A program made the position numbers and the translations under genes. The notes beneath the pieces were generated by a model that was given only the letters and a program-made list of their open reading frames with translations, was not told the DNA's origin and ran no database searches. This document shows, one piece after another, positions 1 through 64,000 of a DNA stretch of 64,000 bases; positions within the stretch are counted from its first letter, which is position 1; each line of letters starts with the position of its first letter. The DNA comes from Chamaelirium japonicum (Eukaryota > Streptophyta > Magnoliopsida > Liliales > Melanthiaceae): assembly GCA_947650365.1 (NCBI GenBank), contig OX393551.1:2004001-2068000 (forward strand). The letters are read 5' to 3'.

Positions 1-139
1 ATCCATTCTAATTCCTTCGTACGATCCATTCTAATTCATTCGTACAATCCATTCTAATTCATTCGCACGATCCATTCTAATTCATTCGTACGATCCATTC
101 TATTTCATTCATACGATCCATTCTAATTCATTCATACGA
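1..139 (-). repeat. C-type block
   Basis: About six monomers; the window opens inside the array. It ends at a GATC-centred fold-back seam (138-141) with near-perfect arms on both sides. Confidence 0.9.
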
Positions 140-1330
140 TCGTATGAATGAAATAGAATGGATCGTACGAGGGAATTAGAATGGATCGTACGAAGGAATT
201 AGAATAGATAGTACGAATGAATTAGAATGGATACCTTCGTGCAAATGAATTAGAATGGATCGTACGAATGAGTAAGAATGGATCGTACGAATGAAATAGA
301 ATGGATCGTATGCATGAATTAGAATGGATCGTGCAAATGAATTAGAATGGATCGTACGAATGAATTAGAATGGATCGTACGAAGGAATTAGAATGGATCG
401 TATGAATGAATTTGAATGGATAGTACGAATGAATTAGAATGGATCGTACGAATGAATTAGAATGGATCGTATGAATGAATTAGAATGGATCGTGCGAATG
501 AATTAGAATGGATCGTGCGAATGAATTAGAATGGATCGTATGAATGAATTAGAATGGATCGTACGAATGAATTAGAATGGGTCGTACGAATGAATTAGAA
601 TGGATCGTACGAATGAGTAAGAATGGATCATACGAATGAGTAAGAATGGATCGTACGAATGAAATAGAATGGATCGTATGAATGAATTAGAATGGATCGT
701 GCGAATAAATTAGAATGGATTGTACGAATGAATTAGAATGGATCGTACGAATGAATTAGAATGGATACATTCGTGCGAATGAATTACAATGGATCATATG
801 AATGAATTAGAATGGATCGTTTGAGTGAATGCGAATGGATCGTGCGAATGAATTAGAATGGATCATACAAATGAATTAGAATAGATTGTGCGAATGAATT
901 AAAATAGATCGTACGAATGAATTAGATTGGATCGTACGAATGAATTAGAATGGATCGTACGAATGAGTAAGAATGGATTGAATTAGAATGAATTAGAATG
1001 GATACATTCATGCAAAAGAATTAGAATGGATCGTACGAATGAAATAGAATGGATCGTACGAATGAATTAGAATGGATCGTACGAATAAATTAGAATGGAT
1101 TGAATTAGAATGGATCGTACGATAAGAATGGATCGTACGAATGAAATAGAATAGATTGTATGAATGAATTAGAATGGATCGTGCGAATGAATTAGAATGG
1201 ATCGTGCGAATGAATTAGAATGGATTGTATGAATGAATTAGAATGGATCGTGCGAATGAATTAGAATGCGAATGAATTAGAATGGATCGTATGAATGAAT
1301 TAGAATGGGTCGTACGAATGAATTAGAATG
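140..1330 (+). repeat. G-type block with T-arm piece
   Basis: The T marker ATACCTTCGTGCAAATG lies near 230. Short 15-bp units (GGATTGAATTAG) occur near 975 and 1100, and a GATAAG short unit near 1123. Confidence 0.9.
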
Positions 1331-1348
1331 GATACACGATCCAGATCC
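1331..1348 (+). repeat. J4 seam, direct
   Basis: G-to-C switch reading GATACACGATCCAGATCC, preceded by a GGGTCGTACG monomer. An identical seam is at 38428 and its reverse complement at 62537. Confidence 0.85.
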
Positions 1349-2479
1349 ATTCTAATTCATTCGTACGATCCATTCTAATTCATTCGCACGATCCATTCTA
1401 ATTCATTAATACGATCCAATCTAATTCATTCATACGATCTATTCTAATTCATTCGCACGAATATATCCTTTCTAATTCATTCGTACGATCCAAATTCATT
1501 TATCCGTACGATCTATTCTATTTCATTCGTACGATCCATTCTTATCGTACGATCCATTCTAATTCAATCCATTCTAATTCATTCGTACGATCCATTCTAA
1601 TTCATTCGTACAATCCATTCTATTTCATTCGTACGATCCATTCTAATTCATTCGCACGATCCATTCTAATTCATTCATACGATCCATTCGTACGACCCAT
1701 TCTAATTCATTCGTAGGATCCATTCTAATTCATTCATACGATCCATTCTATTTCATTCGTACGATCCATTCTTACTCATTCGTACGATCAATTCTAATTC
1801 ATTAGCATGATCCATTCTAATTCATTCGTACGATCTATTCTATTTCATTCGTACAATCCATTCTTACTCAATCATATGATCCATTCTAATTCATTCGCAC
1901 GAATGTATCCATTCCAATTCATTCGTACGATCCATTCTAATTCATTCGCACAATCTATTCTAATTCATTCGTACGATCAATTCTAATTCATTAGCATGAT
2001 CCATTCTAATTCATTCGTACGATCTATTCTATTTCATTCGTACAATCTATTCTTACTCAATCGTATGATCAATTCTAATCCATTCGCACAATCTATTCTA
2101 ATTCATTCGTACGATCCATTCTATTTCATTCGTACGATCCATTCTAATTCATACGATCCATTCTATTTCATTCATACGATCCATTTTACTTCATTCGCAC
2201 GATCCATTCTAATTCATTCGTACTATCCATTCTAATTCCTTCGAACGATCCATTCTAATTCATTCGCACGATCCATTCTAATTCATTCATACGATCCATT
2301 TTAATTCATTCATACGATCCATTCTAATTCATTCGTATGATCCATTCTAATTCATTCGTACGATTCATTCTAATTCAATCCATTCTAATTCATTCGTATG
2401 ATCCATTCTTACTCATTCGTACGATCCATTCTAATTCATTCATACGATCCATTCTAATTCATTCGTACTATCCATTCTA
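1349..2479 (-). repeat. C-type block with S signature
   Basis: It carries a partial S signature near 1826-1890 and a fuller one at 1996-2235, suggesting a local duplication. It ends at the seam CCATTCTAATGGATCG. Confidence 0.9.
1996..2235 (-). repeat. S signature copy (C-type)
   Basis: About ten monomers in a fixed order, with TTACTCAATCG, AATCCATTCGCACAATC and the 19-bp AATTCATACGATCC unit as markers. One frame is open for 79 codons by periodicity alone; it is not a gene. Confidence 0.85.
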
Positions 2480-4107
2480 ATGGATCGTACGAATGAATTA
2501 GAATAGATCGTACGAATGAATTAGAATGGATCATGCTAATGAATTAGAATGGATCGTACGAAGGAATTAGAATGGATCGTACGAATGAATTAGAATGGAT
2601 CGTACGAATGAATTAGAATGGATTGAATTAGAATAAATCGTACGAATGAATTAGAATGAATCATACCGTACGAATGAATTAGAATGGATCATACGAATGA
2701 AATAGAATGGATCGTATGAATGAATTAGAATGGATCGTGCGAATGAATTAGAATGGATCGTACGAATGAATTAGAATAGATCGTACGAATGAATTAGAAT
2801 GGATCATGCTAATGAATTAGAATTGATCGTACGAATGAATTAGAATAGATTGTGCGAAATATTAGAATGGATCGTACGAATGAATTGGAATGGATACATT
2901 CGTGCGAATGAATTAGAATGGATCGTATGAATGAATTAGAGTGGATACATTCGTACAAATGAATTAGGATGGATCGTATGAATGAATTATAGTGGATACA
3001 TTCGTACGAATAAATTAGAATGGATCGTATGAATGAATTAGAATGGATCGTACGAATGAATTAGAATGGATCGTATGAATGAATTAGAATGGATCGTGCG
3101 AATGAATTAGAATGGATCGTACGAATGAAATAGAATGGATCGTATGAATGAATTAGAATGGATCGTGCGAATGAATTAGAATGGATCGTACGAATGAATT
3201 AGAATAGATCGTACGAATGAATTAGAATGGATCATGCTAATGAATTGGAATTGATCGTACGAATGAATTAGAATAGATTGTGCGAATGAATTAGAATGGA
3301 TCGTACGAATGAATTGGAATGGATACATTCGTGCGAATGAATTAGAATGGATCGTATGAATGAATTAGAGTGGATACATTCGTACAAATGAATTAGGATG
3401 GATCGTATGAATGAATTAGAGTGGATACATTCGTACGAATGAATTAGAATAGATTGTGCGAATGAATTAGAATGGATCGTACAAATGAATTAGAATGGAT
3501 CGTACAAAGGAATTAGAATGGAATGGATAGTACGAATGAATTAGAATGGATACCTTCGTGCAAATGAATTAGAATGGATCGCACGAATGAGTAAGAATGG
3601 ATCGTACGAATGAAATAGAATGGATCATATGAATGAATTAGAATGGATCGTACGAATGAATTAGAATGGATACATTCGTGCGAATGAATTAGAATGGATC
3701 ATACGAATGAATTAGAATGGATTCATTCGTGCGAATGAATTAGAATGGATCGTACGAATGAGTAAGAATGGATCGTACGAATGAATTAGAATGGATTGAA
3801 TTAGAATGAATCGTACGAATGAATTAGAATGGATCATACGACGGAATTAGAATGGATCGTACGAATTAATTAGAATGGATCGTGCGAATGAATTAGAATG
3901 GATCGAACGAATGAATTAGAATGGATACATTCGTGCAAAAGAATTAGAATGGATTGTATGAATGAATTAGAATGGATCGTGCGAATGAATTAGAATGGAT
4001 CGTACGAATGAATTAGAATGGATCATACGACGGAATTAGAATGGATCGTACGAATGAATTGGAATGGATCGTATTAATGAATTAGAATGGATCGTGCGAA
4101 TGCATTA
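2480..4107 (+). repeat. G-type block with direct duplication
   Basis: A piece of about 250 bp near 2.76-3.02 kb is repeated at 3.18-3.44 kb, offset about 428 bp; shared rare marks are CATGCTAATG and TTAGGATGG. A T marker lies near 3550. Confidence 0.9.
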
Positions 4108-4388
4108 GATCCATTCTAATTCATTCGTACGACCCATTCTAATTCATTCGCACGATCCATTCTAATTCATTCATACGATCCATTCTATTTCATTCGTATG
4201 ATCCATTCTAATTCATTCGTACGGTATGATTCATTCTAATTCATTCGTTCGATTCATTCTAATTCAATCCATTCTAATTCATTCGTACGATCCATTCTAA
4301 TTCATTCGTACGATCCATTCTAATTCCTTCGTACGATCCATTCTAATTCATTCGTACGATCCATTCTAATTCATTCGCACGATCCATT
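4108..4388 (-). repeat. C-type block
   Basis: It contains the GTACGGTATGATTC mark and a 15-bp short unit (ATTCAATCC), both typical of the T arm in C orientation. Confidence 0.9.
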
Positions 4389-4398
4389 GAATTAGAAT
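4389..4398 (+). repeat. G-type remnant
   Basis: Less than one monomer (AATTAGAATG) before an inverted J1 seam; the smallest block in the window. Confidence 0.75.
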
Positions 4399-4418
4399 GG
4401 ATACATTCGTGCGAATCC
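4399..4418 (-). repeat. J1 seam, inverted
   Basis: GGATACATTCGTGCGAATCC, the exact reverse complement of the direct J1 seam. Confidence 0.85.
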
Positions 4419-4477
4419 ATTTTATTACATTCGTACGATCCATTCTAATTCATTCGCACGATCCATTATAATTCATT
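4419..4477 (-). repeat. C-type short block
   Basis: About two and a half monomers, closed by a TTCGAA-centred fold-back at about 4476-4481. Confidence 0.85.
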
Positions 4478-6081
4478 CGAATGAATTAGAATGGATCGTA
4501 CGAATGAATTAGAATGGATCGTATGAATGAATTAGAATGCATTGTGCAAATGAATTAGAATGGATCGTACGAATGAATTAGAAAGGATACATTCGTGCGA
4601 ATGAATTAGAATGGATCGTATGAGTGTGAATGAATTAGAATGGATCGTACGAATGAATTAGAATGGATCGTACGAATGAATTGGAATGGTTCGTACGAAT
4701 GAAATAGAATGGACCGTATGAATGAATTAGAATGGATCGTACGAATGAAATAGAATGGATTCGCACGAATGAATTAGAATGGATCGTTCGAATGAATTAG
4801 AATAGATTGTGCGAATGAATTAGAATGGATCGTACGAATGAATTAGAAAGGATATATTCGTGCGCATGAATTAGAATAGATCGTATGAATGAATTAGATT
4901 GGATCGTATTAATGAATTAGAATGGATTGTGCGAATGAATTAGAATGGATCGTACGAATGAATTAGAATGGATACATTCATGCGAATGAATTAGAATGGA
5001 TCGTATGAATGAATTAGAATCGATCGTACGAATGAATTAGAATGGATCATGCGAATGAATTAGAATGGATCGTGCGAATGAATTAGAATGGATCGTACGA
5101 ATGAAATAGAATGGATTGTACGAATGAGATAGAATGGATCGTACGAATGAATTAGAATGGATACATTCATGCGAATGAATTAGAATAGATCATACGAATG
5201 AATTAGAATGTATTCATTCGTACGAATGAATTAGAATGGATCGTACGAATGAATTAGAATGGATTGAATTAGAATGAATCGTACGAATGAATTAGAATGG
5301 ATCGTACGAATGAATTAGAATGGATCGTACGAATGAATTAGAATGGATTGAATTAGAATGAATCATACGAATGAATTAGAATGAATCGTATGAATGAATT
5401 AGAATGGATCGTATCAATGAATTAGATTGGATCGTATTAATGAATTAGAATGGATCGTGCGAATGAATTAGAATGGATCGTGCGAATGAATTAGAATGGA
5501 TCGTACGAATGAATTAGATTGGATCGTATTAATGAATTAGAATGGATCGTGCGAATGAATTAGAATGGATCGTACGAATGAATTAGAATGGATCGTACGA
5601 ATGACTTAGAATGGATCGTTCGAATGAATTAGAAGAGATTGTGCGAATGAATTAGAATGGATAGTACGAATGAATTAGAATGGATCCCTTCGTGCAAATG
5701 AATTAGAATGGATCGTACGAATGAGTAAGAATGGATCGTATGAATGAAATAGAATGGATCGTATGAATGAATTAGAATGGATCGTACGAAGGAATAAGAA
5801 TGGATGTACGAATGAATTAGAATGGATACCTTCGTGCAAATGAATTAGAATGGATCGTACGAATGAGTAAGAATGGATCGTACGAATGAAATAGAATGGA
5901 TCGTATGAATGAATTAGAATGGATCGTGCGAATGAATTAGAATGGATCGTACGAATGAATTAGAATAGATTGTGCGAATGAATTAGAATGGATCGTACGA
6001 ATGAATTAGAATGGATCGTATGAATGAATTAGAATGGATCGTGCGAATGAATTAGAATGGATCGTACGAATGAAATAGAAT
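4478..6081 (+). repeat. G-type block
   Basis: Outer T-arm pieces (GAGATAGAATGG with CATTCATGCG) occur near 5125-5175. T markers are near 5681 (variant ATCCCTTCG) and 5826, about 145 bp apart, indicating another small duplication. Confidence 0.9.
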
Positions 6082-10980: not shown

Positions 10981-11006
10981 TGTGAGTGGATCGTGTTTTT
11001 TCGTGC
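10981..11006 (+). repeat. J3 spacer, T6 orientation
   Basis: TGTGAGTGGATCGTG, then six T, then CGTGC, between a C-type left arm and a G-type right arm. It is the least monomer-like sequence in the window and would be the loop of a fold-back. Confidence 0.85.
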
Positions 11007-13121
11007 TAATGAATTAGAATGGATCGTACGAATGAATTAGAATGGATACATTCGTGCGAAAGAATTAGAATGGATCATATGAATGAATTAGATTGGATAC
11101 ATTCGTGCAAATGAATTAGAATGGATACATTCATGGGAATGAATTAGACTGGATCGTACAAAGGAATTAGAATGGATCATACGAATGAAATATAATGGGT
11201 CGTACAAAGGAATTAGGATGGATCGTACGAATGAATTAGAATGGATCGTACGAATGAATTAGAATGGATTGAATTAGAATGAATCGTACGATTGAATTAG
11301 AATGAATCGTACGAATGAATTAGAATGGATCGTACGAATGAATTAGAATGGATCGTACGAATGAATTAGAATGGATTGAATTAGAATGAATCGTACGAAT
11401 GAATTAGAATGAATCATACCGTACGAATGAATTAGAATGGATCATACGAAGGAATTAGAATGGATCGTACGAATGAATTAGAATGGATCGTACGAATGAA
11501 TTAGAATGGATCGTACGAAGGAACTAGAATGGATAGTATGAATGAATTAGAATGGATACCTTCGTGCAAATGAATTAGAATGGATCGTACGAATGAGTAA
11601 GAATGGATCGTACGAATGAAATAGAATGGATCGTATGAATGAATTAGAATGGATCGTGCGAATGAATTAGAATGGATCGTACGAATGAATTAGAATAGAT
11701 TGTGCGAATGAATTAGAATGGATCGTATGAATGAATTAGAAAGGATCGTACGAATGAATTAGAATGGATCGTATGAATGAATTAGAATGGATCGTGCGAA
11801 TGAATTAGAATGGATCGAACGAATGAAATAGAATGGATACATTCGTGCAAATGAATTAGAATGGATCATATGAATGAATTAGAATGGATCGTTTGAGTGA
11901 ATGCGAATGGATCGTGCGAATGAATTAGAATGAATTAGAATGGATCGTACGAATGAATTAGAATGGATCGTGCGAATGAATTAGAATGGATCGTGCGAAT
12001 GAATTAGAATGGATCGTATTAATGAAATAGAATGGATCGTGCGAATGAATTAGAATGGATCGTACGAATGAGTAAGAATGGATCGTGCGAATGAAATAGA
12101 ATGGATCGTATGAATGAATTAGAATGGATCGTGCGAATGAATTAGAATGGATCGTACGAATGAATTAGAATGGATTGAATTAGAATGAATCGTACGAATG
12201 AATTAGAATGAATCATACCGTATGAATGAATTAGAATGGATCATACGAAGGAATTAGAATGGATCATACGAATGAATTAGAATGGACCGTACGAATGAAT
12301 TAGAATGGATCGTATGAAGGAATTAGAATGGATCATACGAAGGAATTAGAATGGATAGTACGAATGAATTAGAATGGATACCTTCATGCAAATGAATTAG
12401 AATGGATCGTACGAATGACTAAGAATGGATCGTACGAATGAAATAGAATGGATCGTATGAATGAATTAGAATGGTCGTGCGAATGAATTAGAATGGATCG
12501 TACGAATGAATTAGAATAGATTGTGCGAATGAATTAGAATGGATCGTACGAATGAATTAGAATGGATTGTACGAATGAATTAGAATGGATCGTATGAATG
12601 AATAAGAATGGATCATGCGAATGAATTAGAATGGATCGTACGAATGAAATAGAATGGATTCGCACGAATGTATCCGAATGGATCGTACGAAGGAATTAGA
12701 ATGGATCGTACGAAGGAATTAGAATGGATAGTACGAATGAATTAGAATGGATACCTTCGTGCAAATGAATTAGAATGGATCGTACGAATGAGCAAGAATG
12801 GATCGTACGAATGAAATAGAATGGATCGTATGAATGAATTAGAATGGATCGTGCGAATGAATTAGAATGGATCGTACGAATGAATTAGAATAGATTGTGC
12901 GAATGAATTAGAATGGATCGTACGAATGAATTAGAATGGATCGTATGAATGAATTAAAATGGATCTTATGCATGAATTAGAATGGATCGTGCGAATGAAT
13001 TAGAATGGATCGTACGAATGAATTAGAATGGATCGTACGAAGGAATTAGAATGGATCGTATGAATGAATTAGAATGGATCGTGCGAATGAATTAGAATGG
13101 ATCGTACGAATGAAATAGAAT
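11007..13121 (+). repeat. G-type block with duplicated T arm
   Basis: T markers near 11556, 12378 and 12750. A direct duplication of about 466 bp ends at J1 copies 12656 and 13122. Confidence 0.9.
12656..12675 (+). repeat. J1 seam core without its C-type arm
   Basis: The 20-bp J1 core is present, but G-type sequence (GAATGGATCGTACG) follows at once. A repeat exchange appears to have broken inside the seam. Confidence 0.8.
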
Positions 13122-14330: not shown

Positions 14331-14649
14331 TCGTATGCATGAATTAGAATGGATCGTGCGAATGAATTAGAATGGATCGTACGAATGAATTAGAATGGAT
14401 CGAACGAATGAATTAGAATGGATACATTCGTGCAAAAGAATTAGAATGGATTGTATGAATGAATTTGAATGGATCGTGCGAATGAATTAGAATGGATCGT
14501 ACGAATGAATTAGAATGGATACATTCGTGCGAAAGAATTAGAATAGATCTTATGAATGAATTAGAATGGATCGTATGAATGAAATAGAATGGATCGTACG
14601 AATGAATTAGAATGGATCGTACGATAGAATTAGAATGGATCGTACGAAT
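14331..14649 (+). repeat. G-type short block
   Basis: Shares the GTATGCATG, CGAACG, GTGCAAAAG order with 43566-43800 and 48168-48423. Confidence 0.88.
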
Positions 14650-14668
14650 GAATTCGAATGTATCCTTT
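14650..14668 (+). repeat. J2 seam, direct
   Basis: GAATTCGAATGTATCCTTT, identical to 9865. Confidence 0.85.
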
Positions 14669-14884
14669 CTAATTCATTCATACGATCCATTCTAATTCCT
14701 TCGTATGATCCATTCTAATTCATTCGTACGATCCATTCTAATTCATTCACACGATCCATTCTAATTCATTTGTACGATCCATTCAATTTCATTCATACGA
14801 TCCATTCTGATTCATTCATACGATCTATTCTAATTCTTTCGCACGAATGTATCCATTCTAATTCATTCGTACGATCCATTCTAA
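14669..14884 (-). repeat. C-type short block
   Basis: Ends at CTAATTAG, 14881-14888. Confidence 0.88.
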
Positions 14885-15654: not shown

Positions 15655-15674
15655 GGATTCGCACGAATGTATCC
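15655..15674 (+). repeat. J1 seam, direct
   Basis: Full T arm on the left, S arm on the right. Confidence 0.87.
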
Positions 15675-16110
15675 ATTCTAATTCATTCGTACGATCCATT
15701 CTAATTCATTCGTACAATCCATTCTAATTCATTCGCACGATCCATTCGCATTCACTCAAACAATCCATTCTAATTCATTCATATGATCCATTCTAATTCA
15801 TTCGCACGAATGTATCCATTCTAATTCATTCGTACGATTCATTCTAATTTATTTGTACGAATGTATCCACTCTAATTCATTCATACGATCCATTCTAATT
15901 CATTCGCACGAATGTATCCATTCCAATTCATTCGTACGAACCATTCTAATTCATTCGCACAATCTATTCTAATTCATTCGTATGATCTATTCTATTTCAT
16001 TCGTACAATCCATTCTTACTCAATCGTATGATCCATTCTAATCCATTCGCACAATCTATTCTAATTCATTCGTACGATCCATTCTATTTCATTCGTACGA
16101 TCCATTCTAA
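15675..16110 (-). repeat. C-type block, truncated S arm
   Basis: CGCATTCACTCAAAC, CCACTC and half of the S signature (from about 15983), cut at CTAATTAG (16107-16114). The same cut is seen at 63034. Confidence 0.9.
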
Positions 16111-21543: not shown

Positions 21544-23396
21544 TAATGAATTAGAATGGATCGTACGAATGAATTAGAATGGATACATTTGTGCGAAAGA
21601 ATTAGAATGGATCGTATGAATGAATTAGATTGGATCGTATAAATGAATTAGAATGCATCGTACGAATGAATTAGAATGGATCGTGCTAATGAATTAGAAT
21701 GGATCCTGCTAATGAATTAGAATGGATCGTGCGAACGAATTAGAATGGATCGTGCGAATGAATTAGAATGGATCGTACGAATGAATTAGAATGGATCGTG
21801 CGAATGAATTAGAATGGATCGTGCGAATGAATTAGAATGGATCGTACGAATGAATTAGAATGGATCGTGCGAATGAATTAGAATGGATCGTGCGAATGAA
21901 TTAGAATGGATCGTGCGAATGAATTAGAATGGATCGTGCGAATGAATTAGAATGGATCGTACGAATGAATTAGAATGGATCGTACGAATGAATTAGAATG
22001 GATCGTATGAATGAATTAGATTGGATCGTATTAATGAATTAGAATGGATCGTACGAATGAATTAGAATAGATCGTACGAATGAATTAGAATGGATACGAA
22101 AGGATCGTACGAATGAGTAAGAATGGATCGTACGAATGAAATAGAATGAATTGTACGAATGAATTAGAATGGATACATTCGTGCAAATGAATTAGGATGG
22201 ATCGTATGAATGAATTAGAATAGATTGTGCGAATGAATTAGAATGGATCGTACGAATGAATTAGAATGGATACATTCATGTGAATGAATTAGAATAGATC
22301 GTATGAATGAATTAGAATGGATCGTATGAGTGAATTAGAATGGATACGAAGGAATTAGAATGGATCGTACGAAGGAATTAGAATGGAGAATGGATCGTGC
22401 GAATGAATTAGAATGGATCGTGCGATAAGAATGGATCGTATGAATGAAATAGAATAGATCGTACGGATAAATGAATTTGGATCGTGCTAATGAATTAGAA
22501 TGGATCGTACGAATGAATTAGAATGGATCATACTAATTAATTAGAATAGATTGTGGGAATGAATTAGAATGGATCGTACGAATGAATTAGAAAGGATATA
22601 TTCGTGCGAATGAATTAGAATAGATCGTATGAATGAATTAGATTGGATCGTATTAATGAATTAGAATGGATCGTGCGAATGAATTAGAATGGATCGTACG
22701 AATGAATTAGAATAGATAGATTCGTGCGAATGAATTTGAATGGATCGTACGAAGGAATTAGAATGGATCGTACGAAGGAATTAGAATAGATCATACGAAT
22801 AAATTAGAATGGATCGTACGAATGAATTAGAATGGATCGTATGAATGAATTAGAATGGATCGTGCGAATGAATTAAAATGGATCGTATGAATGAAATAGA
22901 ATGGATCGTATGAATTAGAATGGATCGTACGAATGAAATAGAATGGATCGTACGAATGAATTAGAATAGATTGTGCGAATGGATTAGAATGGATCATACG
23001 ATTGAGTAAGAATGGATTGTACGAATGAAATAGAATAGATCGTACGAATGAATTAAGATGGATCATGCTAATGAATTAGAATTGATCGTACGAATGAATT
23101 AGAATAGATTGTGCGAATGAATTAGAATGGATCGTACGAATGAATTGGAATGGATACATTCGTGCGAATGAATTAGAATGGATCGTATGAATGAATTAGA
23201 GTGGATACATTCGTACAAATGAATTAGAATGGATCGTACGAATGAATTAGAATGGATACATTCGTACGAATGAATTAGAATGGATCATATGAATGAATTA
23301 GAATGGATCGTTTGAGTGAATGCGAATGGATCGTGCGAATGAATTAGAATGGATTGTACGAATGAATTAGAATGGATCGTACGAATGAATTAGAAT
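21544..23396 (+). repeat. G-type block with full S arm
   Basis: GCGATAAG / GGATAAATGAATTTGG near 22430, S signature 22827-23066, then the GAGTGAATGCG unit and inverted J1. Confidence 0.92.
22827..23066 (+). repeat. S signature copy (G-type)
   Basis: Same monomer order as 1996-2235, read on the other strand. Confidence 0.88.
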
Positions 23397-23416
23397 GGAT
23401 ACATTCGTGCGAATCC
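23397..23416 (-). repeat. J1 seam, inverted
   Basis: S arm in G orientation on the left, T arm in C orientation on the right: a whole composite unit turned round. Confidence 0.88.
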
Positions 23417-24020
23417 ATTCTATTTCATTAGTACGATCCATTCTAATTCATTCGCACGATCCATTCTAATTCATTCGTACGATCCATTCTAATTCATTCG
23501 TACGATCCATTCTAATTCATTCGTACGATCCATTCTAATTCATTCGCACAATCTATTCTAATTCATTCGTACGATCCATTCTAATTCATTCGCACGATCC
23601 ATTCTAATTCATTCATACGATCCATTCTATTTCATTCGTACGATCCATTCTTACTCATTCGTACGATCCATTCTAATTCATTTGCACGAAGGTATCCATT
23701 CTAATTCATTCGTACTATCCATTCTAATTCCTTCGTACGATCCTTTCTAATTCCTTCGTACGATCCATTCTAATTCATTCGTACGATCCATTCTAATTCA
23801 TTCGTACGATCCATTCTAATTCCTTTGTATGATCCATTCTAATTCATTCGTACGGTATGATTCATTCTAATTCATTCGTACGATTCATTCTAATTCAATC
23901 CATTCTAATTCATTCGTACGATCCATTCTAATTCATTCGTACAATCCATTCTAATTCATTCGTATGATTCATTCTAATTCAATCCATTCTAATTCATTCG
24001 TATGATCCATTCTTACTCAT
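23417..24020 (-). repeat. C-type block, T arm
   Basis: T marker near 23688, then GTACGGTATGATTC near 23851 and two 15-bp units; ends at TTACTCATCGTATGCATG. Confidence 0.9.
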
Positions 24021-28744: not shown

Positions 28745-29011
28745 ATTCTATTTCGTTCGTACGATCCATTCTAATTCATTCGCACGATCCATTCTAATTC
28801 ATTCATACGATCCATTCTAATTAATTCGTACGATCCATTCTAATTCATTCGTACGATCCATTCTAATTCATTCGCATAATCTATTCTAATTCATTCGTGC
28901 GATCCATTCTAATTCATTCGCACGATCCATTCTAATTCATTCATACGATCCATTCTATTTCATTCATATGATCCATTCTAATTCATTCGCACGATTCATT
29001 CTAATTCATTA
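28745..29011 (-). repeat. C-type short block
   Basis: Joins inverted J1 to inverted J3; matches 29792-30058. Confidence 0.9.
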
Positions 29012-29037
29012 GCATGAAAAAACACGATCCACTCACA
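29012..29037 (-). repeat. J3 spacer, A6 orientation
   Basis: Reverse complement of 10981 with GCATG for GCACG. Confidence 0.86.
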
Positions 29038-29771
29038 TACGAATAAATTAGAATGAATTAGAATGGATAGTACGAATGAATTAGAATGGATTGAATTAGA
29101 ATTGATCGTGCGAATGAATTAGAATGGATCATACGAATGAATTAGATTGGATCGTATGAATGAATTAGAATGGATCATGTGAATGAATTAGAATGGATCG
29201 TACGAATGAATTAGAATGGATCGTTTGAATGAATTAGAATGGATCGTACTTATGAATTAGAATGGGTCGTTTGAGTGAATGCGAATGGATCGTGCAAATG
29301 AATTAGAATGGATTGTACGAATGAATTAGAATGGATTGTACGAATGAATTAGAATGGATCGTGCGAATGAATTAGAATGGATCGTACGAATGAATTAGAA
29401 TGGATCGTTTGAATGAATTAGAATGGATCGTACTTATGAATTAGAATGGGTCGTTTGAGTGAATGCGAATGGATCGTGCGAATGAATTAGAATGGATTGT
29501 ACGAATGAAATAGAATGGATCGTACGAAGGAATTAGAATGGATTGTACGAATGAATTAGAATGGATCGTACGAATGAATTAGAATGGATCATTTGAATTA
29601 GAATGGATTGTACGAATGAATTAGAATAGATTGTACGAATGAATTAGAATTAGAATGGATCGTACGAATGAATTAGAATGGATCATATGAATGAATTAGA
29701 ATGGATCATTTGAGTGAATGCGAATGGATCGTGTTAATGAATTAGAATGGATCGTACGAATGAATTAGAAT
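29038..29771 (+). repeat. G-type block
   Basis: A rare pair, GTACTTATG and GGGTCGTTTGAGTG, occurs near 29246 and again 184 bp later (eight monomers). Confidence 0.9.
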
Positions 29772-33460: not shown

Positions 33461-35134
33461 TGTATGAATGAATTAGAATGGATCGTACGAATGAATTAGA
33501 GTTGATACATTCGTGCGAATGAATTAGAATGGATCGTACGAATGAATTAGATTGGATCGTATGAATGAATTATAATGGATCATGCGAATGAATTAGAATA
33601 GATCATACGAATGAATTAGAATGGATCGTAAGAATGAATTAGAATGGATACATACGAATGAATTAGAAAGGATACATTCGTGCGAATGAATTAGAATGGA
33701 TCGTATGAGTGTGAATGAATTAGAATGGATCGTGCGAATGAATTAGAATGGATCGTACGAATGAATTAGAATGGATACATTCGTACGAATGAAATAGAAT
33801 GGATCATACGAATGAATTAGAATGGATCGTATGAATGAATTAGAGTGGATACATTCGTACGAATGAATTAGAATGGATACATTTGTGCGAATGAATTAGA
33901 ATGGATCATATGAAGGAATTAGAATGGATCGTTTGAGTGAATGCGAATGGATCGTGCGAATGAATTAGAATGGATTGTACGAATGAATTAGAATGGATCG
34001 TACGAATGAATTAGAATGGATCGTACGAATGAATTAGAATGAATCGTACGAATGAATTAGAATGAATCATACCGTACTAATGAATTAGAATGGATCATAC
34101 GAAGGAATAAGAATGGATCGTACGAATGACTTAGAATGGATCGTACGAATAAATTAGAATGGATTATACGAAGAAATTAGAATGGATCGTACGAATGAAT
34201 TAGAATGGATCGTATGAATGAATTAGAATGGATCGTGCGAATGAATTAAAATGGATCGTATGAATGAAATAGAATGGATCGTATGAATTAGAATGGATCG
34301 TACGATTGAAATAGAATGGATCGTACGAATGAATTAGAATAGATTGTGCGAATGGATTAGAATGGATCATACGATTGAGTAAGAATGGATTGTACGAATG
34401 AAATAGAATAGATCGTACGAATGAATTAGAATGGATCATGCAAATGAATTAGAATTGATCGTATGAATGAATTAGAATAGATTGTGCGAATGAATTAGAA
34501 TGGATCGTACGAATGAATTGGAATGGATACATTCGTGCGAATGAATTAGAATGGATCGTATGAATAAGTTAGAGTGGATACATTCGTACAAATGAATTAG
34601 AATGGATCGTACGAATGAATTAGAATGGATACATTCGTGCGAAAGAATTAGAATAGATCGTATGAATGAATTAGAATGGATCGTATGAATGAAATAGAAT
34701 GGATCGTACGAATGAATTAGAATGGATCGTGCGAATGAATTAGAATGGATCGTACGAATGAATATCGTACGAATGAATTAGAATAGATCGTACGAATGAA
34801 TTAGAATGGATCGTACGAAGGAATTAGAATGGATAGTACGAATGAATTAGAATGGATACCTTCGTGCAAATGAATTAGAATGGATCGTACGAATGAGTAA
34901 GAATGGATCGTACGAATGATATAGAATGGAACGTATGAATGAATTAGAATGGATCGTGCGAATGAATTAGAATAGATTGTGCGAATGAATTAGAATGGAT
35001 CGTACGAATGAATTAGAATGGATCGTACGAATGAAATAGAATGGATCGTACGAATGAATTAGAATGGATCGTATGAATGAATTAGAATGGATCGTATGAA
35101 TGAATTAGAATGGAACGTACGAATGAAATAGAAT
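33461..35134 (+). repeat. G-type block with S signature and T arm
   Basis: After the ACATGT seam comes a GAGTTGATACATTCG monomer shared with 49075 and 61620. S signature 34200-34439; odd fused unit GAATGAATATCGTACG near 34757; T marker near 34856. Confidence 0.9.
34200..34439 (+). repeat. S signature copy (G-type)
   Basis: Full-length; differs from 22827 at a few bases such as CGATTGAAATAG. Confidence 0.87.
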
Positions 35135-35154
35135 GGATTCGCACGAATGTATCC
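35135..35154 (+). repeat. J1 seam, direct
   Basis: T arm left, full S arm right. Confidence 0.88.
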
Positions 35155-36778
35155 ATTCTAATTCATTCGTACGATCCAGTCTAATTCATTCGTACAATCC
35201 ATTCAAATTCATTCGCACGATCCATTCACATTCACTCAAACGATCCATTCTAATTCATTCATATGATCCATTCTAATTCATTCGCAAGAATGTATCCATT
35301 CTAATTCATCCGTACGATCCATTCTAATTCATTTGTACGAATTTATCCACTCTAATTCATTCATACGATTCATTCTAATTCATTCGCACGAATGTATCCA
35401 TTCCAATTCATTCGTACGATCCATTCTAATTCATTTGCACAATCTATTCTAATTCATTCGTACGATCAATTCTAATTCATTAGCATGATCCATTCTAATT
35501 CATTCGTACGATCTATTCTATTTTATTCGTACAATCCATTCTTACTCAATCGTATGATCCATTCTAATCCATTCGCACAATCTATTCTAATTCATTCGTA
35601 CGATCCATTCTATTTCATTCGTACGATCCATTCTAATTCGTACGATCCATTCTATTTCATTCATACGATCCATTTTAATTCATTCGCATGATCCATTCTA
35701 ATTCATTCATACGATCCATTCTAATTTATTCGTACGATCCATTCTAATTTCTTCGTATGATCTATTCTAATTCCTTCATACGATCCATTCTAATTCCTTC
35801 GTACGATCCATTCTAATTCATTCGCACGAATCTATCCTTTCTAATTCATTCGTACGATCCATTCTAATTCATTCGCACGATCCATTCTAATTCATTAATA
35901 CGATCCAATCTAATTCATTCATACGATCTATTCTAATTCATTCGCACGAATATATCCTTTCTAATTCATTCGTACGATCCATTCTAATTCATTCGCACAA
36001 TTTATTCTAATTCATTAGTACGATCCATTCTAATTCATTCGTACGATCCATTCTAATTCATTAGCACGATCCAAATTCATTTATCCGTACGTTCTATTCT
36101 ATTTCATTCGTACGATCCATTCTTATCGCACGATCCATTCTAATTCATTCGCACGATCCATTCTCCATTCTAATTCCTTCGTACGATCCATTCTAATTCC
36201 TTTGTATCCATTCTAATTCACTCATACGATCCATTCTAATTCATTCATACGATCCATTCTAATTCATTCGCATGAATGTATCCATTCTAATTCATTCGTA
36301 CGATCCATTCTAATTCATTCGCACAATCTATTCTAATTCATTCATACGATCCATCCTAATTCATTCCCACGAATGTATGCATTCTAATTCATTCGTACAA
36401 TCCATTTTATTTCATTCGTACGATCCATTCTTACTCATTCATACGATCCATTCGTATCCATTCTAGTTCATTCGTACGATCTATTCTAATTCATTCGTAC
36501 GATCCATTCTAATTCATTAATACGATCCAATCTAATTCATTCGTACGATCCATTCTAATTCATTCGTATGATCCATTCTAATTCATTCGTACGATCCATT
36601 CTAATTCATTCGCACGATCCATTCTAATTCATTCGTACGATCCATTCTAATTCATTCGCACGATCCATTCTAATTCATTCGCACGATCCATTCTAATTCA
36701 TTCATACGATCCATTCTAATCCATTCGCACAATCTATTCTAATTCATTCGTACAATCCATTCTATTTCATTCGTACGA
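35155..36778 (-). repeat. C-type block, full S arm
   Basis: Ordered marks: CACATTCACTCAAACG, CCACTC, signature 35485, GGATAAATG complement near 36075, ATTCTTATCGCACG near 36119, TTCTCCATTC near 36163. Ends at a GATC seam (36777-36780). Confidence 0.92.
35485..35691 (-). repeat. S signature copy (C-type)
   Basis: Matches 45461 and 51842; the frame closes early at 68 codons because of a late base change. Confidence 0.86.
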
Positions 36779-38427
36779 TCGTAAGAATGAATTTGAATGG
36801 ATTGTATGAATGAATTAGATTAGATCGTATAAATGAATTAGAATAGATCGTACGAATGAATTAGAATGGATACGAATGGATCGTACGAATGAGTAAGAAT
36901 GGATCGTACGAATGAAATAGAATGGATTGTACGAATGAATTAGAATGGATACATTCGTGCGAATAAATTAGGATAGATCGTATGAATGAATTAGAATAGA
37001 TTATGCGAATGAATTAGAATGGATCGTACGAATGAATTAGAATGGATACATTCATGTGAATGAATTAAAATGGATCGTACGAATGAGTAAGAATGGATCG
37101 TACGAATGAATTAGAATCGATCGTACGAATGAATTAGAATTAGAATGAATTGGAATGGATCGTACGAATGAATTAGAGTGGATCGTATGAATGAATTAGA
37201 ATGGATTCATTCGTGCCAATGAATTAGAATGGATCTTACGAATGAGTAAGAATGGATCGTACGAATGAAATAGAATGGATTGTACGAATGAATTGGAATG
37301 GATTCATTCATGCGAAAGAATTAGAATGGATCGTACAAATGAATTAGAATGGATCGTACGAATAAATTAGAATGGATCGTGTGAAAGAATTAGAATGGAT
37401 TGTATGAATGAATTAGAATGGATCGTATGAATGAATTAGAATGGATCGGACGAATGAATTAGAATGGATCATACGAATAAATTAAAATGGATCGTACGAA
37501 TGAATTAGAATGGATACATTCGTGCGAATGAATTAGAATGGATCATACGAATGAGTAAGAATGGATCGTACGAATGAAATAGAATGGATCGTATGAATGA
37601 ATTAGAATGGATCGTGCGAATGAATTAAAATGGATCGTATGAATGAAATAGAATGGATCGTATGAATTAGAATGGATCGTACGAATGAAATAGAATGGAT
37701 CGTACGAATGAATTAGAATAGATTGTGCGAATGGATTAGAATGGATCATACGATTGAGTAAGAATGGATTGTACGAATGAAATAGAATAGATCGTACGAA
37801 TGAATTAGAATGGATCATGCTAATGAATTAGAATTGATCGTACGAATGAATTAGAATAGATTGTGTGAATGAATTAGAATGGATCGTACGAATGAATTGG
37901 AAAGGATACATTCGTTCGAATGAATTAGAATGGATCGTATGAATGAATTAGAGTGGATACATTCGTACAAATGAATTAGAATGGATCGTACGAAGGAATT
38001 AGAATGGATACATTCGTGCGAATGAATTAGAATGGATCGTATGAATGAATTAGAATCGATCGTACGAATGAATTAGAATGGATCATGCGAATGAATTAGA
38101 ATGGATCGTGCGAATGAATTAGAATGGATCGTATGAATGAAATAGAATGGATTGTACGAATGAGATAGAATGGATCGTACGAATGAATTAGAATGGATAC
38201 ATTCATGCGAATGAATTAGAATGGATCATACGAATGAATAAGAATGGATTCATTCGTGCGAATGAATTAGAATGGATCGTACGAATGAGTAAGAATGGAT
38301 CGTACGAATGAATTAGAATGGATTGAATTAGAATGAATCGTACGAATGAATTAGAATGGATCGTACGAATGAATTAGAATGGATCGTGCGAATGAATTAG
38401 AATGGGTCGTACGAATGAATTAGAATG
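36779..38427 (+). repeat. G-type block with S signature
   Basis: Signature 37543-37818, S-arm units to about 38030, then outer T-arm marks (GAGATAGAATGG near 38162). Confidence 0.9.
37543..37818 (+). repeat. S signature copy (G-type)
   Basis: Full order present, with open frame extended upstream to 91 codons by neighbouring monomers. Confidence 0.86.
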
Positions 38428-53278: not shown

Positions 53279-54549
53279 TACGAATAAATTAGAATGAATT
53301 AGAATGGATTGTGTGAATGAAATTGATCGTACGAATGAATTAGAATAGATTGTGCGAATGAATTAGAATGGATCGTACGAATGAATTGGAATGGATCATA
53401 CGAATGAATTAGAATGGATCGTACGAATGAATTAGAATGGTTACATTCATGCGAATGAATTAGAATGGATCGTATGAATGAATTAGAATGGATCGTATGT
53501 GTGAATTAGAATGGATACGAAGGAATTAGAATGGATCGTACGAAGGAATTAGAATGGAGAATGGATCGTGCGAATGAATTAGAATGGATCGTACGAATGA
53601 AATAGAATAGATCGTACGGATAAATGAATTTGGATCGTACTAATGAATTAGAATGGATCGTATGAATGAAATAGAATGGATCATACTAATGAATTAGAAT
53701 AGATTGTTCGAATGAATTAGAATGGATCTTACGAATGAATTAGAAAGGATATATTCGTGCGAATGAATTAGAATAGATCGTATGAATGAATTAGATTGGA
53801 TCGTATTAATGAATTAGAATGGATCGTGCGAATGAATTAGAATGGATCGTACGAATGAATTAGAATGGATAGATTCGTGCGAATGAATTTGAATGGATCG
53901 TATGAAGGAATTAGAATGGATCGTACGAAGGAATTAGAATAGATCATACGAAGAAATTAGAATGGATCGTACGAATGAATTAGAATGGATCGTATGAATG
54001 AATTAGAATGGATCGTGCGAATGAATTAAAATGGATCGTATGAATGAAATAAAATGGATCGTATGAATTAGAATGGATCGTACGAATGAAATAGAATGGA
54101 TCGTACGAATGAATTAGAATAGATTGTGCGAATGGATTAGAATGGATCATACGATTGAGTAAGAATGGATTGTACGAATGAAATAGAATAGATCGTACGA
54201 ATGAATTAGAATGGATCATGCTAATGAATTAGAATTGATCGTACGAATGAATTAGAATAGATTGTGCGAATGAATTAGAATGGATCGTACGAATGAATTG
54301 GAATGGATACATTCGTGCGAATGAATTAGAATGGATCGTATGAATGAATTAGAGTGGATACATTCGTACAAATGAATTAGAATGGATCGTACGATTGAAT
54401 TAGAATGGATACATTCGTGCGAATGAATTAGAATGGATCATATGAATAAATTAGAATGGATCGTTTAAGTGAATGCGAATGGATCGTGCGAGTGAATTAG
54501 AATGGATTGTACGAATGAATTAGAATGGATCGTACGAATGAATTAGAAT
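53279..54549 (+). repeat. G-type block, full S arm
   Basis: Right-hand partner of 51513-52620, with signature 53980-54219 and GTTTAAGTGAATGCG before inverted J1. Confidence 0.92.
53980..54219 (+). repeat. S signature copy (G-type)
   Basis: Full copy, mirrored with 51842. Confidence 0.88.
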
Positions 54550-54569
54550 GGATACATTCGTGCGAATCC
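54550..54569 (-). repeat. J1 seam, inverted
   Basis: GGATACATTCGTGCGAATCC. Confidence 0.88.
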
Positions 54570-55461
54570 ATTCTATTTCATTCGTACGGTCCATTCTAAT
54601 TCACTCGCACGATCCATTCTAATTCATTCATACGATCCATTCTAATTCATTCGTATGATCCATTCTAATTCATTCGTACGATCCCTTCTAATTCATTCGC
54701 ACAATCTATTCTAATTCATTCGCACGATCCATTCTAATTTATTCGCACGATCCATTCTAATTCATTCATATGATCCATTCTATTTCATTCGTACGATCCA
54801 TTCTTACTCATTCGTACGATCCATTCTAATTCATTTGCACGAAGGTATCCATTCTAATTCATTCGTACTATCCATTCTAATTCCTTCGTACGATACATTC
54901 TAATTCCTTCGTACGATCCATTCTAATTCATTCGTACGATCCATTCTAATTCATTCGTACGATCCATTCTAATTCCTTCGTATGATCCATTCTAATTTAT
55001 TCGTACGGTATGATTCATTCTAATTCATTCGTACGATTCATTCTAATTCAATCCATTCTAATTCATTCGTACGATCCATTCTAATTCATTCGTACGATTC
55101 ATTCTAATTCAATCCATTCTAATTCATTCGTACGATCCATTCTTACTCATTCGTACGATCCATTCTAATTCATTCGAACGAATGAATCCATTCTAATTCA
55201 TTCGTATGATCCATTCTAATTCATTCGCATGAATGTATCCATTCTAATTCATTCGTACGATCCATTCTATCTCATTCGTACAATCCATTCTATTTCATTC
55301 GTACGATCCATTCTAATTCATTCGCATGATCCATTCTAATTCATTCGCATGATCCATTCTAATTTATTCGCACGATCCATTCTAATTCATTCATACGATC
55401 CATTCTAATTCATTTATATGATCCATTCTAATTCATTCGTACGATCCATTCTAATTCATTA
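54570..55461 (-). repeat. C-type block, T arm
   Basis: T marker near 54837, GTACGGTATGATTC near 55003, TCTCATTCGTACAATCC near 55270. Confidence 0.92.
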
Positions 55462-61028: not shown

Positions 61029-61118
61029 TAGAATGGATCGTGCGAATGAATTAGAATGGATCGTGCGAATGAATTAGAATATGGATCGTACGAAGGAATT
61101 AGAATGGATCGTACGAAT
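61029..61118 (+). repeat. G-type short block
   Basis: Four monomers with GAATATGG. Confidence 0.87.
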
Positions 61119-61137
61119 GAATTCGAATGTATCCTTT
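61119..61137 (+). repeat. J2 seam, direct
   Basis: GAATTCGAATGTATCCTTT. Confidence 0.86.
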
Positions 61138-61582
61138 CTAATTCATTCGTACGATCCATTCTAATTCCTTCGTACGATCCATTCTAATTCATTCGTACGG
61201 TCCATTCTAATTCATTCGCACGATCCATTCTAATTCATTCGTACGATCCATTCTATTTCATTCATACGATCCATTCTAATTCATTCATACGATCTATTCT
61301 AATTCTTTCGCACGAATGTATCCATTCTAATTCATTCGTACGATCCATTCTAATTCATTCGCACGATCCATTCTAATTCATTCATACAATCCATTCTAAT
61401 TATTTTGCATGAATGTATCCATTCTAATTAATTCGTTCGATCCATTCTAATTCATTCGTACGATCCATTCTAATTCATTCGCACGATCCATTCTAATTCA
61501 TGCATACGATCCAATCTAATTCATTCATACGATCCATTCTAATTCATTCGCACGAATGTATCCATTCTAATTCATTCGTACA
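61138..61582 (-). repeat. C-type block
   Basis: Ends in ATGCATACGATCCAATC units and the ACATGT seam (61580-61585), matching 48950-49046. Confidence 0.9.
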
Positions 61583-62536
61583 TGTATGAATGAATTAGAA
61601 TGGATCGTACGAATGAATTAGAGTTGATACATTCGTGCGAATGAATTAGAATGGATCGTACGAATGAATTAGATTGGATCGTATAAATAAATTATAATGG
61701 ATCATGCGAATGAATTAGAATAGATCATACGAATGAATTAGAATGGATCGTACGAATGATTTAAAATGGATACATTCGTGCAAAAGAATTAGAATGGCTT
61801 GTATGAATGAATTAGAATGGATCGTGCGAATGAATTAGAATGGATACATTCGTGCGAATGAATTAGAATGGATCGTATGAATGAATTAGATTGGATCGTA
61901 TGAATGAATTAGAATGGATCGTACGAATGAATTAGAATGGATCATACGAATGAATTAGAATGGATCGTATGAATGAATTAGAATGGATTGTACGAATGAA
62001 TTAGAATGGATCATTTGAATGAATTAGAATGGATCGTACTTATGAATTAGAATGGGTCATACGAATGAAATAGAATGGATCGTACGAAGGAATTAGAAAG
62101 GATCGTACAGACGAATTAGAATGGATCGTATGAATGAAATAGAATAGATCGTACGAATGAATTAGAATGGATCGTATGAATGAATTAGATTGGATCGTAT
62201 GAATGAATTAGAATGGATTGTACGAATGAAATAGAATAGATCGTACGAATGAAATAGAATGGATCGTACGAATGAATTAGAATAGATTGTGCGAATGGAT
62301 TAGAATGGATCATACGATTGAGTAAGAATGGATTGTTCGAATGAAATAGAATAGATCGTACGAATGAATTAGAATGGATCGTATGAATGAATTAGAATGG
62401 ATCGTGCGAATGAATTAGAATGGATCGTATGAATGAATTAGAATGGATCGTATGAATGAATTAGAATGGATCGTAGTAATGAATTAGAATGGATCCTACG
62501 AATGAATTAGAATAGATTGTGCGAATGAATTAGAAT
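61583..62536 (+). repeat. G-type block
   Basis: GAGTTGATACATTCG near 61620; rare GTACTTATG near 62036; partial S signature about 62239-62372. Confidence 0.9.
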
Positions 62537-62554
62537 GGATCTGGATCGTGTATC
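62537..62554 (-). repeat. J4 seam, inverted
   Basis: GGATCTGGATCGTGTATC, reverse complement of 1331, followed by the complement of the GGGTCGTACG monomer. Confidence 0.86.
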
Positions 62555-63037
62555 CATTCTAATTCATTCGTACGACCCATTCTAATTCATTCGCACGATC
62601 CATTCTAATTCATTCGTACGATCTATTCTATTTCATTCGTACAATCCATTCTAATTCATTCATACGATCCAATCTAATTCATTCGCACGAATGTATCCAT
62701 TCTAATTCATTCGTACGATCCATTCTAATTCATTTGTACGAATGTATCCACTCTAATTCATTCATACGATCCATTCTAATTCATTCGCACGAATGTATCC
62801 ATTCCAATTCATTCGTACGATCCATTCTAATTCATTCGCACAATCTATTCTAATTCATTCGTACGATCAATTCTAATTCATTAGCATGATCCATTCTAAT
62901 TCATTCGTACGATTTATTCTATTTCATTCGTACAATCCATTCTTACTCAATCGTATGATCCATTCTAATCCATTCGCACAATCTATTCTAATTCATTCGT
63001 ACGATCCATTATATTTCATTCGTACGATCCATTCTAA
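62555..63037 (-). repeat. C-type block, truncated S arm
   Basis: CCACTC near 62750, signature from 62886, cut at CTAATTAG (63034-63041) as at 16107. Confidence 0.9.
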
Positions 63038-63325
63038 TTAGAATGGATAGTACGAATGAATTAGAATGGATACCTTCGTGCAAATGAATTAGAATGGATC
63101 GTACGAATGAGTAAGAATGGATCGTAAGAATAAAATAGAATGGATCGTATGAATAAATTAGAATGGATCGTGCGAATGAATTAGAATGGATCGTACGAAT
63201 GAATTAGAATAGATTGTGCGAATGAATTAGAATGGATCGTACGAATGAATTAGAATGGATCGTACGAATGAATTAGAATGGATCGTGCAAATGAATTAAA
63301 ATGGATCGTACGAATGAAATAGAAT
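63038..63325 (+). repeat. G-type short block, T arm
   Basis: Starts GGATAGTACG, T marker near 63070, then J1 after about 290 bp. Confidence 0.9.
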
Positions 63326-63345
63326 GGATTCGCACGAATGTATCC
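63326..63345 (+). repeat. J1 seam, direct
   Basis: GGATTCGCACGAATGTATCC. Confidence 0.88.
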
Positions 63346-64000
63346 ATTCTAATTCATTCGTACGATCCATTCTAATTTATTCGTACAATCCATTCTAATT
63401 CATTCACACGATCCATTCGCATTCACTCAAACGATCCATTTTAATTCATTCATATGATCCATTCTAATTCATTCGCACGAATGTATCCATTCTAATTCAT
63501 TCGTACGATCCATTCTAATTCATTTATATGAATGTATCCACTCTAATTCATTCATACAATCCATTCTAATTCATTCGCACGAATGTATCCATTCCAATTC
63601 ATTCGTACGATCCATTCTAATTCATTCGCACAATCTATTCTAATTCATTCGTACGATCAATTCTAATTCATTAGCATGATCCATTCTAATTCATTTGTAT
63701 GATCTATTCTATTTCATTCGTACAATCCATTCTTACTCAATCGTATGATCCATTCTAATCCATTCGCACAATCTATTCTAATTCATTCGTACAATCCATT
63801 CTATTTCATTCGTACGATCCATTCTAATTCATACGATCCATTCTATTTCATTCATACGATCCATTTTAATTCATTCGCACGATCCATTCTAATTCATTCA
63901 TACAATCCATTCTAATTCATTCGTACGATCCATTCTAATTTCTTCGTATGATCTATTCTAATTCCTTCGTACGATCCATTCTAATTCCTTCGTACGATCC
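63346..64000 (-). repeat. C-type block, S arm running off the window
   Basis: CGCATTCACTCAAACG near 63417, signature 63676-63915, then the AATTTCTTCG unit; the window ends inside the arm. Confidence 0.92.
63676..63915 (-). repeat. S signature copy (C-type)
   Basis: Full order; starts about 790 bp after the truncated copy at 62886. Confidence 0.86.

Follow-up and report, generated by a model that had tools for sequence, protein, structure and literature searches.

Chio1, a 23-bp satellite, is the most abundant repeat of Chionographis japonica (16.11%), and its companion Chio2, of 28 bp, differs from it by 5 bp and one substitution (PMC10264360). Arrays of these satellites mix forward and reverse runs and contain dyad symmetries (Kuo et al., 2023, PMC10264360); a 2025 paper describes their "frequently alternating orientation" (PMC12722358), and CENH3 ChIP and FISH demonstrate that CENH3 chromatin, hence the kinetochore, assembles on them (PMC10264360).

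Other described satellites resemble Chio in part. Chama, the satellite of the macro-monocentromeres of Chamaelirium luteum (sister genus), is likewise centromeric and dyad-rich and has the 9-mer TTCGTACGA in common with Chio, but its monomer is of 60 bp, and its arrays are consistently oriented and form long higher-order repeats (PMC12722358). TmSat1 and TmSat2, which form the macro-dyads of Tribolium madens, are, like Chio, two related satellites intermingled, with strand changes at a few conserved types of inversion sites; on the other hand, they come from a beetle, are unrelated in sequence, derive from units of approximately 110 bp, and their arrays mostly consist of two sub-arrays several kb in length, compared to one to two flips per kb in Chio (PMC13081366). 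CUS-TR24 of Cuscuta europaea is, as Chio, a heterochromatin satellite abundant in a holocentric plant, with arrays of opposite orientation nearby, but it has a 389-bp monomer and is interspersed with LINEs and simple repeats (PMC8091179). Considered at first as a 24-bp satellite, it was rejected given the actual monomer length (PMC8091179).

Identity and extent of the satellite

The window, i.e., the whole analyzed stretch of 64,000 bp, is covered wall to wall by 23-bp-based arrays, as identified by TRF from base 1 to base 64000. The monomer GATCGTACGAATGAATTAGAATG has 92.5% identity across the window in a two-strand cyclic Viterbi decoder; the identity is nowhere lower than 79% over 100 bp and 66% over 50 bp. 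As even the weakest 100-bp stretch is 79% monomer-like, the window is free of foreign inserts of at least 100 bp, and the earlier note, which had described a 64-kb satellite of a 23-bp monomer with no other sequence between the runs, was right on both points.

1–64000, no strand: Chio1/Chio2 satellite, very probably from inside a single centromere unit (C3), in 75 runs whose strand alternates (TRF and decoder)
11000–11154, + strand: tandem 28-bp unit (Chio2-like), 5.9 copies, local (TRF)

A 28-bp variant, GGATACATTCGTGCGAATGAATTAGAAT, differing from the 23-bp unit by 5 bp and one substitution, has 262 matches in the window vs. 2,091 for the 23-bp unit (each with at most three substitutions). 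The extra ACATT of Chio2 yields CATTCG-TG-CGAATG, that is, the neighboring CGAATG copied inverted. The 9-mer TTCGTACGA is also found in the window satellite. Genome-wide, 10,472,701 matches of the 23-mer (at most three mismatches) amount to 240.9 Mb, or at least 15.9% of the assembly used for all such counts (3,253 contigs with a total of 1,518,659,071 bp; the primary assembly as published has 3,786 contigs and 1,526,137,861 bp). Rescaling by the density in the window itself yields 21% (23-mer) or 29% (exact 39-mer), therefore the genome share is approximate. Contigs with COX1, rbcL and matK mark the source of this assembly as a plant; its Rubisco is closest, among solved chains, to 1wdd and 5wsk, those of rice and wheat.

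The window satellite is the holocentromere satellite Chio1 mixed with Chio2, the match resting on the source genome, the 23/28-bp pair, the share and the 9-mer rather than on the full consensus letters; the mixture of forward and reverse runs is present as well. The unit lengths, the share of approximately 16%, the mixed runs and the dyad symmetries are common to the window and to published Chio1/Chio2, and nothing in the available text of that description speaks against membership (PMC10264360). The earlier note was wrong in taking the family for undescribed, and such a reading has next to no chance: six 14–16-letter pieces of the monomer are absent from the searched literature text, and a monomer 24-mer has no matches in viral contigs or in a prokaryote genome collection, but the share, the pair of unit lengths and the common 9-mer all fit Chio1/Chio2, a family with the same inverted organization in print (PMC10264360, PMC12722358). 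As Chio and the alternation of its strands are both already in print, the observation of the earlier note rediscovers a known feature, and only the build of the direction changes looks new; junction classes, spacer lengths and copy-orientation counts were not found in the available text of the searched literature on Chio arrays.

The array extends past the window. Out of twenty 10-kb samples of C3, nine contain the satellite (at 1.50, 1.70, 1.85, 1.95, 1.99, 2.07, 2.12, 2.30, and 2.50 Mb), so that it spans the samples from 1.50 to 2.51 Mb, broken at 2.20 Mb, where the sample is 5% satellite and the remainder largely a retrotransposon; the satellite cover of the remaining ten samples is 0.00. 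We assign a probability of approximately 0.9 to the joint explanation that the window lies inside one Mb-scale Chio1/Chio2 centromere unit of the holocentric C. japonica, with flips that, as we infer, arose by fold-back and block copying.

Strand switches and their junctions

The strand-aware decoder yields 74 orientation switches in the window at the switch penalty of 20 and 76 at 14, while the permissive penalty of 8 gives 480 switches with a median run of 47 bp. In control runs, shuffling the bases of the window lowers the score per base from +0.70 to –0.37, and a simulated one-way array with approximately 7.5% errors produces no switches in 64 kb. The run lengths vary from 25 to 3063 bp, with the median of 611 bp and the mean of 853 bp. 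Hence the count of about 75 switches, given in the earlier note, and its estimate of one strand change of the same monomer per approximately 0.8 kb hold; the sign of the GC skew agrees with the decoded strand in 75 of 75 runs, as expected there from the 6 G and 2 C that the monomer indeed contains. The structural reading, of one monomer with frequent flips of strand and skew and nothing between, is correct.

Switch density is alike in the window, in the nine C3 satellite samples (131 switches in 90 kb) and in one C1 sample, L037 (10 flips in 8 kb). The switch statistics left out the ten satellite-free C3 samples and sample L026; sample L001, partly non-satellite, was decoded but stands outside the junction set, and the overlapping L002–L008 were not used. 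A 36-kb one-way stretch on C1 was rejected, as the C1 sequence L037 itself flips ten times in 8 kb, and a single orientation of junction A on C2, seen among the matches listed, was dropped; both impressions were abandoned because the matches listed for very common patterns are partial.

A few junction sequences are used again and again at the switches: 214 junctions form 38 classes, compared to 92–113 for random splices, both at the cut of three edits, the only one for which the null was computed. The clustering is single-linkage and depends on the cut, with 64 classes at two edits, 13 at four and three at five. Junctions had to lie at least 30, 60 or 25 bp from the ends of a sample, which left sets of 214, 212, and 215, respectively, and all junction counts are counts of copies, not of independent events.

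15655–15690, no strand: convergent junction class A, Chio1 half and Chio2 half with a 12-nt spacer, example (decoder)
6099, 7798, 13139, 18835, 23401, 28729, 29776, 32908, 35152, 45128, 51510, 54554, 57642, 63343: class A, further examples
14649–14684, no strand: convergent junction class B, example (decoder)
9881, 13787, 14201, 14666, 19977, 21349, 26724, 40500, 48431, 55661, 61135: class B sites
29010–29060, no strand: divergent junction class C, with AAAAAA, example (decoder)
10980, 21517, 29034, 30081, 40055, 53275, 55484: class C sites
127–148, no strand: divergent spacer-free palindrome, GATC center; consensus form matched exactly at 4,339 sites of the genome
20120–20141, no strand: divergent spacer-free palindrome, CGTACG center; consensus form matched exactly at 4,823 sites of the genome
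16098–16119, no strand: divergent spacer-free palindrome, AATT center

Class A accounts for 18 of the 37 convergent switches in the window and has 12,282 exact copies genome-wide, class B accounts for 11 of the 37 and has 4,070 copies, while the seven copies of class C are confined to the window among the 12 decoded stretches. Recurring inversion-site sequences of the Tribolium type are thus present (38 classes in 214 junctions; thousands of exact copies of A and B), whereas two sub-arrays of several kb are not, the 64 kb being divided into 75 short runs.

The monomer contains three self-complementary cores, GATC, TCGTACGA, and AATT. Spacer-free palindromes are observed at 28 of 107 divergent switches vs. 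39 of 1000 random splices. Convergent switches have no preference for them, with loop 0 at 6 of 105 (random, 37 of 1000) and loop of at most 1 nt also at 6 of 105 (random, 101 of 1000), which is evidence against seeding at the cores; a spacer of 11–12 nt, found at 57 of the 105, corresponds to none of these cores. The link of junctions to Chio2 fails in the small C1 sample (one of five convergent and three of five divergent junctions).

Duplicated blocks and the origin of the flips

Duplicated blocks occur in direct and inverted orientation at a ratio of approximately 1:1. Among block pairs of at least 400 bp and at least 95% identity, 114 are direct and 134 inverted, and 44 carry a switch; copies inside single stretches, counted without overlapping self-matches and matches shorter than 200 bp, are 739 direct vs. 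748 inverted. Some of the distance bins are uneven, e.g., 79 direct and 133 inverted at 2–5 kb, 175 and 141 at 10–20 kb.

21771–23854, + strand: 2084-bp block with a switch; inverted copy at 34705–36780, 96.4% identity
22428–23958, + strand: 1531-bp block with a switch; direct copy at 53581–55111, 97.8% identity

The reuse of junctions, the palindromes and the balanced copies suggest fold-back template switching followed by orientation-blind copying. At the cores one strand could pass seamlessly into the other, and an inverted join would result when, in the course of replication or of the repair of a break, a nascent strand turned back on itself or jumped to the opposite template. Blocks bearing such joins, some hundreds of bp up to 2 kb long, would then be copied elsewhere with either orientation about equally likely, which would multiply a few founder joins and hold the switch density at one to two per kb; Chio2 itself looks like a very small outcome of such a fold-back. 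In its full form the proposal is tentative and falls short of even odds: orientation-blind copying seeded at self-complementary cores would build the Chio arrays, with a few founder junctions (on C3 mostly Chio1 half to Chio2 half) multiplied to thousands across chromosomes as conserved inversion sites, convergent with Tribolium and absent from the sister species.

Alternatively, the duplication itself could be direct, and the flips could come from repeated inversion within the array by crossing over between inverted copies, a possible course that likewise stays below an even chance. It would equally yield the 1:1 ratio with the junction sequences kept, and inverted blocks are abundant; but direct copying predicts an excess of direct copies among near or similar ones, therefore the balance both within 1 kb (50 direct, 49 inverted) and at identity of at least 98% (10 direct, 13 inverted), although based on small counts, speaks against it.

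Selection for alternation, with long inverted runs or junction hairpins aiding CENH3 loading, as has been proposed for the Tribolium macro-dyads, seems unlikely. Conserved inversion sites do exist in the Tribolium satellites (PMC13081366), but the centromeric Chama arrays of the sister species are consistently oriented (PMC12722358). The similar switch density in the window, the nine C3 satellite samples and the one C1 sample would be in line with such selection.

Artefacts of assembly or of fold-back reads are a very improbable source of the switches, as many arms are diverged and not exact mirror images, and the junction sequences recur genome-wide. The median run is far below the length of HiFi reads. 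Moreover, the published assembly is based on 58.5x HiFi and Hi-C data, and mixed orientation is reported by its authors (PMC10264360).

Fold-back with orientation-blind copying would provide a testable account of satellite growth without a fixed orientation. Unequal crossing over produces head-to-tail arrays; unlike this expectation, inverted and direct block copies are equally frequent in Chio, and divergent joins gather at palindromic cores. If the account is true, conserved inversion sites exist in a functional plant holocentromere. The one-way Chama and the flipping Chio offer a natural contrast in which to ask whether the spread of centromeres is driven by dyads or merely accompanied by them.

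Identity and genomic abundance of the satellite

The 23-bp monomer GATCGTACGAATGAATTAGAATG fills the entire 64-kb window, which spans C3:2004001-2068000, as a satellite, with 92.5% identity across it as decoded by a Viterbi algorithm (23 phases per strand, the monomer as reference) and at least 79% in any 100-bp stretch. The decoder places 74 strand switches at penalty 20 and 76 at penalty 14, in line with the approximately 75 estimated in an earlier note from the sequence alone; a permissive penalty of 8 yields 480 switches with a median run of 47 bp, and a simulated one-way array, none. The sign of GC skew follows the strand in 75 of 75 runs, as that note had also proposed.

The window also contains a 28-bp variant, GGAT-ACATT-CGTGCGAATGAATTAGAAT, which is separated from the 23-bp unit by 5 bp and one substitution. 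The same difference is given for Chio2 (28 bp) and Chio1 (23 bp), the variants of a satellite cluster constituting 16.11% in Chionographis japonica (PMC10264360). The monomer also includes the 9-mer TTCGTACGA, listed in a 2025 paper as common to Chio and Chama, the centromere satellite of the sister species Chamaelirium luteum (PMC12722358). On unit lengths, the variant difference, the shared 9-mer and the assembly figures, we consider the identity of the window satellite as Chio1/Chio2 settled. The mixture of forward and reverse Chio arrays is in print (PMC10264360), and the 2025 paper describes Chio as having “frequently alternating orientation”, as opposed to Chama arrays all running one way (PMC12722358). 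Both the family and its flips were thus known already; the observation is confirmed, while the suggestion of an undescribed 23-bp family has to be withdrawn.

Plastid and mitochondrial genes mark the analysed assembly as that of a plant. It comprises 1,518,659,071 bp (1.519 Gb) in 3,253 contigs, of which the longest twelve total 1,090.67 Mb (N50 contig of the whole assembly, C8, 81,106,678 bp; C13 has merely 3.9 Mb). The published figures are 1090.73 Mb in 12 chromosome scaffolds, N50 of 81.11 Mb and a primary assembly of 1,526,137,861 bp (PMC10264360), so that the analysed assembly is 7.5 Mb shorter. Monomer matches with at most three mismatches number 10,472,701 (5,201,152 forward and 5,271,549 reverse; reversed-pattern controls, 0 and 1), equivalent to 240.9 Mb (15.9% of the assembly); this share is approximate, since scaling by the match density of the window gives 21%, and by the exact 39-mer (535,170 forward, 542,462 reverse), 29%. 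The strands are nearly balanced across the genome, versus a forward share of 60% in the window. On C1, satellite junctions cluster, among the matches listed, at 1.4–3.3, 10.3–10.7, 17.1–18.4, 27.4–31.0, 40.4–42.7, 49.0–52.0, 65.0–67.3 and 75.0–76.4 Mb, a spacing in keeping with the published mean interval of 9.97 Mb (PMC10264360).

The first 10 kb of C3 are CCCTAAA telomere repeat (9,996 of 10,000 bases). A further element lies within a centromere unit of this contig:

C3:2200001-2210000 (sample L026), 1164-4544 and 4611-5828, minus strand, LTR-retrotransposon-like element (long open frames, Pfam)

It has a gag-like frame of 405 aa and a protease-RT-RNaseH-integrase frame of 1126 aa, in the domain order of Ty3/gypsy elements; the satellite returns approximately 9.3 kb into the sample. 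By eye, the first ~400 bases of C1:1366258-1369296 (L001) are a GC-rich short tandem repeat, GAGCGAGCTAGGCGAGCTCCTG-like, differing from the satellite and adjoining the C1 satellite array. Plastid DNA constitutes many small contigs; same-strand rbcL repeats spaced by 154.6–154.8 kb on C265, C337, C340 and C367 point to a plastome of roughly this size that many contigs carry.

Anatomy of the switch junctions

Across the decoded stretches switch density is 1.0–1.9 per kb (74 switches in the window, 131 in nine C3 samples totaling 90 kb, and 10 in an 8-kb C1 sample). The 214 junctions with sufficient flank form 38 classes (at most three edits over 36 bases, single linkage), the top six covering 152 junctions and 20 being singletons. 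For comparison, randomly spliced junctions from this DNA, drawn in three sets of 214, yield 92–113 classes, 84–97 singletons and 88–126 junctions in the top six; because linkage is single, big clusters arise by chance too. In the window, 29 of 37 convergent switches belong to two classes. Convergent junction A, AGAATGGAT-TCGCACGAATGT-ATCCATTCT, has 12,282 exact copies of its 28-base core genome-wide (6,125 forward, 6,157 reverse), and convergent junction B, 4,070 (2,003 and 2,067 by strand), with zero in both controls. The C1 sample contains neither exact A nor exact B, and exact B occurs beyond the window once in the decoded stretches, in sample L025. Divergent class C, confined to the window among 12 stretches, carries an AAAAAA run (29010-29060 and six other sites); nowhere else in the window is resemblance to the monomer as low as at class C, with 50% identity across 30 bp.

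A spacer of 11–12 nt is present in 57 of 105 convergent switches, compared to 78 of 1000 random splices, while only 6 of 105 are spacer-free (random, 37/1000). Among divergent switches 28 of 107 are spacer-free (random, 39/1000), these being palindromes centered at CGTACG, GATC, AATT or a variant core. Thus the core-palindrome signal sits in divergent switches, and convergent ones mostly have a fixed spacer in its place. In raw counts, exact consensus palindromes occur genome-wide at 2,387 (GGATCC) and 5,655 (CGTACG) convergent and 4,823 (CGTACG) and 4,339 (GATC) divergent sites.

Of 107 convergent switches, 64 have a Chio2-type half no more than 20 bp away, as do 8 of 108 divergent switches and 619 of 5,500 random points; none of the convergent ones has it in both directions. 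The C1 sample departs from this pattern, with such a half near one of its five convergent switches and three of its five divergent ones. As merely 64 of 545 such halves are near a convergent switch, Chio2 is not switch-specific. Since the junctions are copies of one another, these figures are descriptions, not tests on independent events.

Block copies and proposed origin of the alternation

Comparison of the decoded stretches reveals 248 block pairs of at least 400 bp and at least 95% identity; 114 of them are in direct and 134 in inverted orientation, and 44 contain a switch. Wider criteria (at least 200 bp, at least 93% identity, both copies in one stretch) give 739 direct and 748 inverted pairs; at gaps below 1 kb the numbers are 50 and 49, and at 98% identity or more, 10 and 13. 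Some distance bins are uneven (2–5 kb, 79 direct vs. 133 inverted; 10–20 kb, 175 vs. 141). The similar counts indicate that copies were placed, or turned afterwards, with little regard to orientation.

The reading we favour is that self-complementary cores would be sites of fold-back or template switching, blocks then being copied in either sense. The sequence shows that the ACATT insert of Chio2 creates CATTCG-TG-CGAATG, which may be the outcome of the same kind of event on a scale of 6 bp. The main rival, also possible on these data, is frequent inversion via crossing over between inverted copies.

The closest analogue found outside this plant comes from the (peri)centromeric satellites of Tribolium madens. 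In these, too, the strand changes at a small number of conserved types of inversion site, though mostly with two sub-arrays per array; such macro-dyads are said in that paper to be documented in Tribolium alone, and the name Chionographis is absent from it (PMC13081366). The published Chio descriptions, in the parts accessible (PMC10264360, PMC12722358), yielded no account of switch junctions, whose anatomy is a modest addition to a known satellite. The consistent orientation of the 60-bp Chama arrays, unlike Chio (PMC12722358), argues that alternation is dispensable for centromere function.
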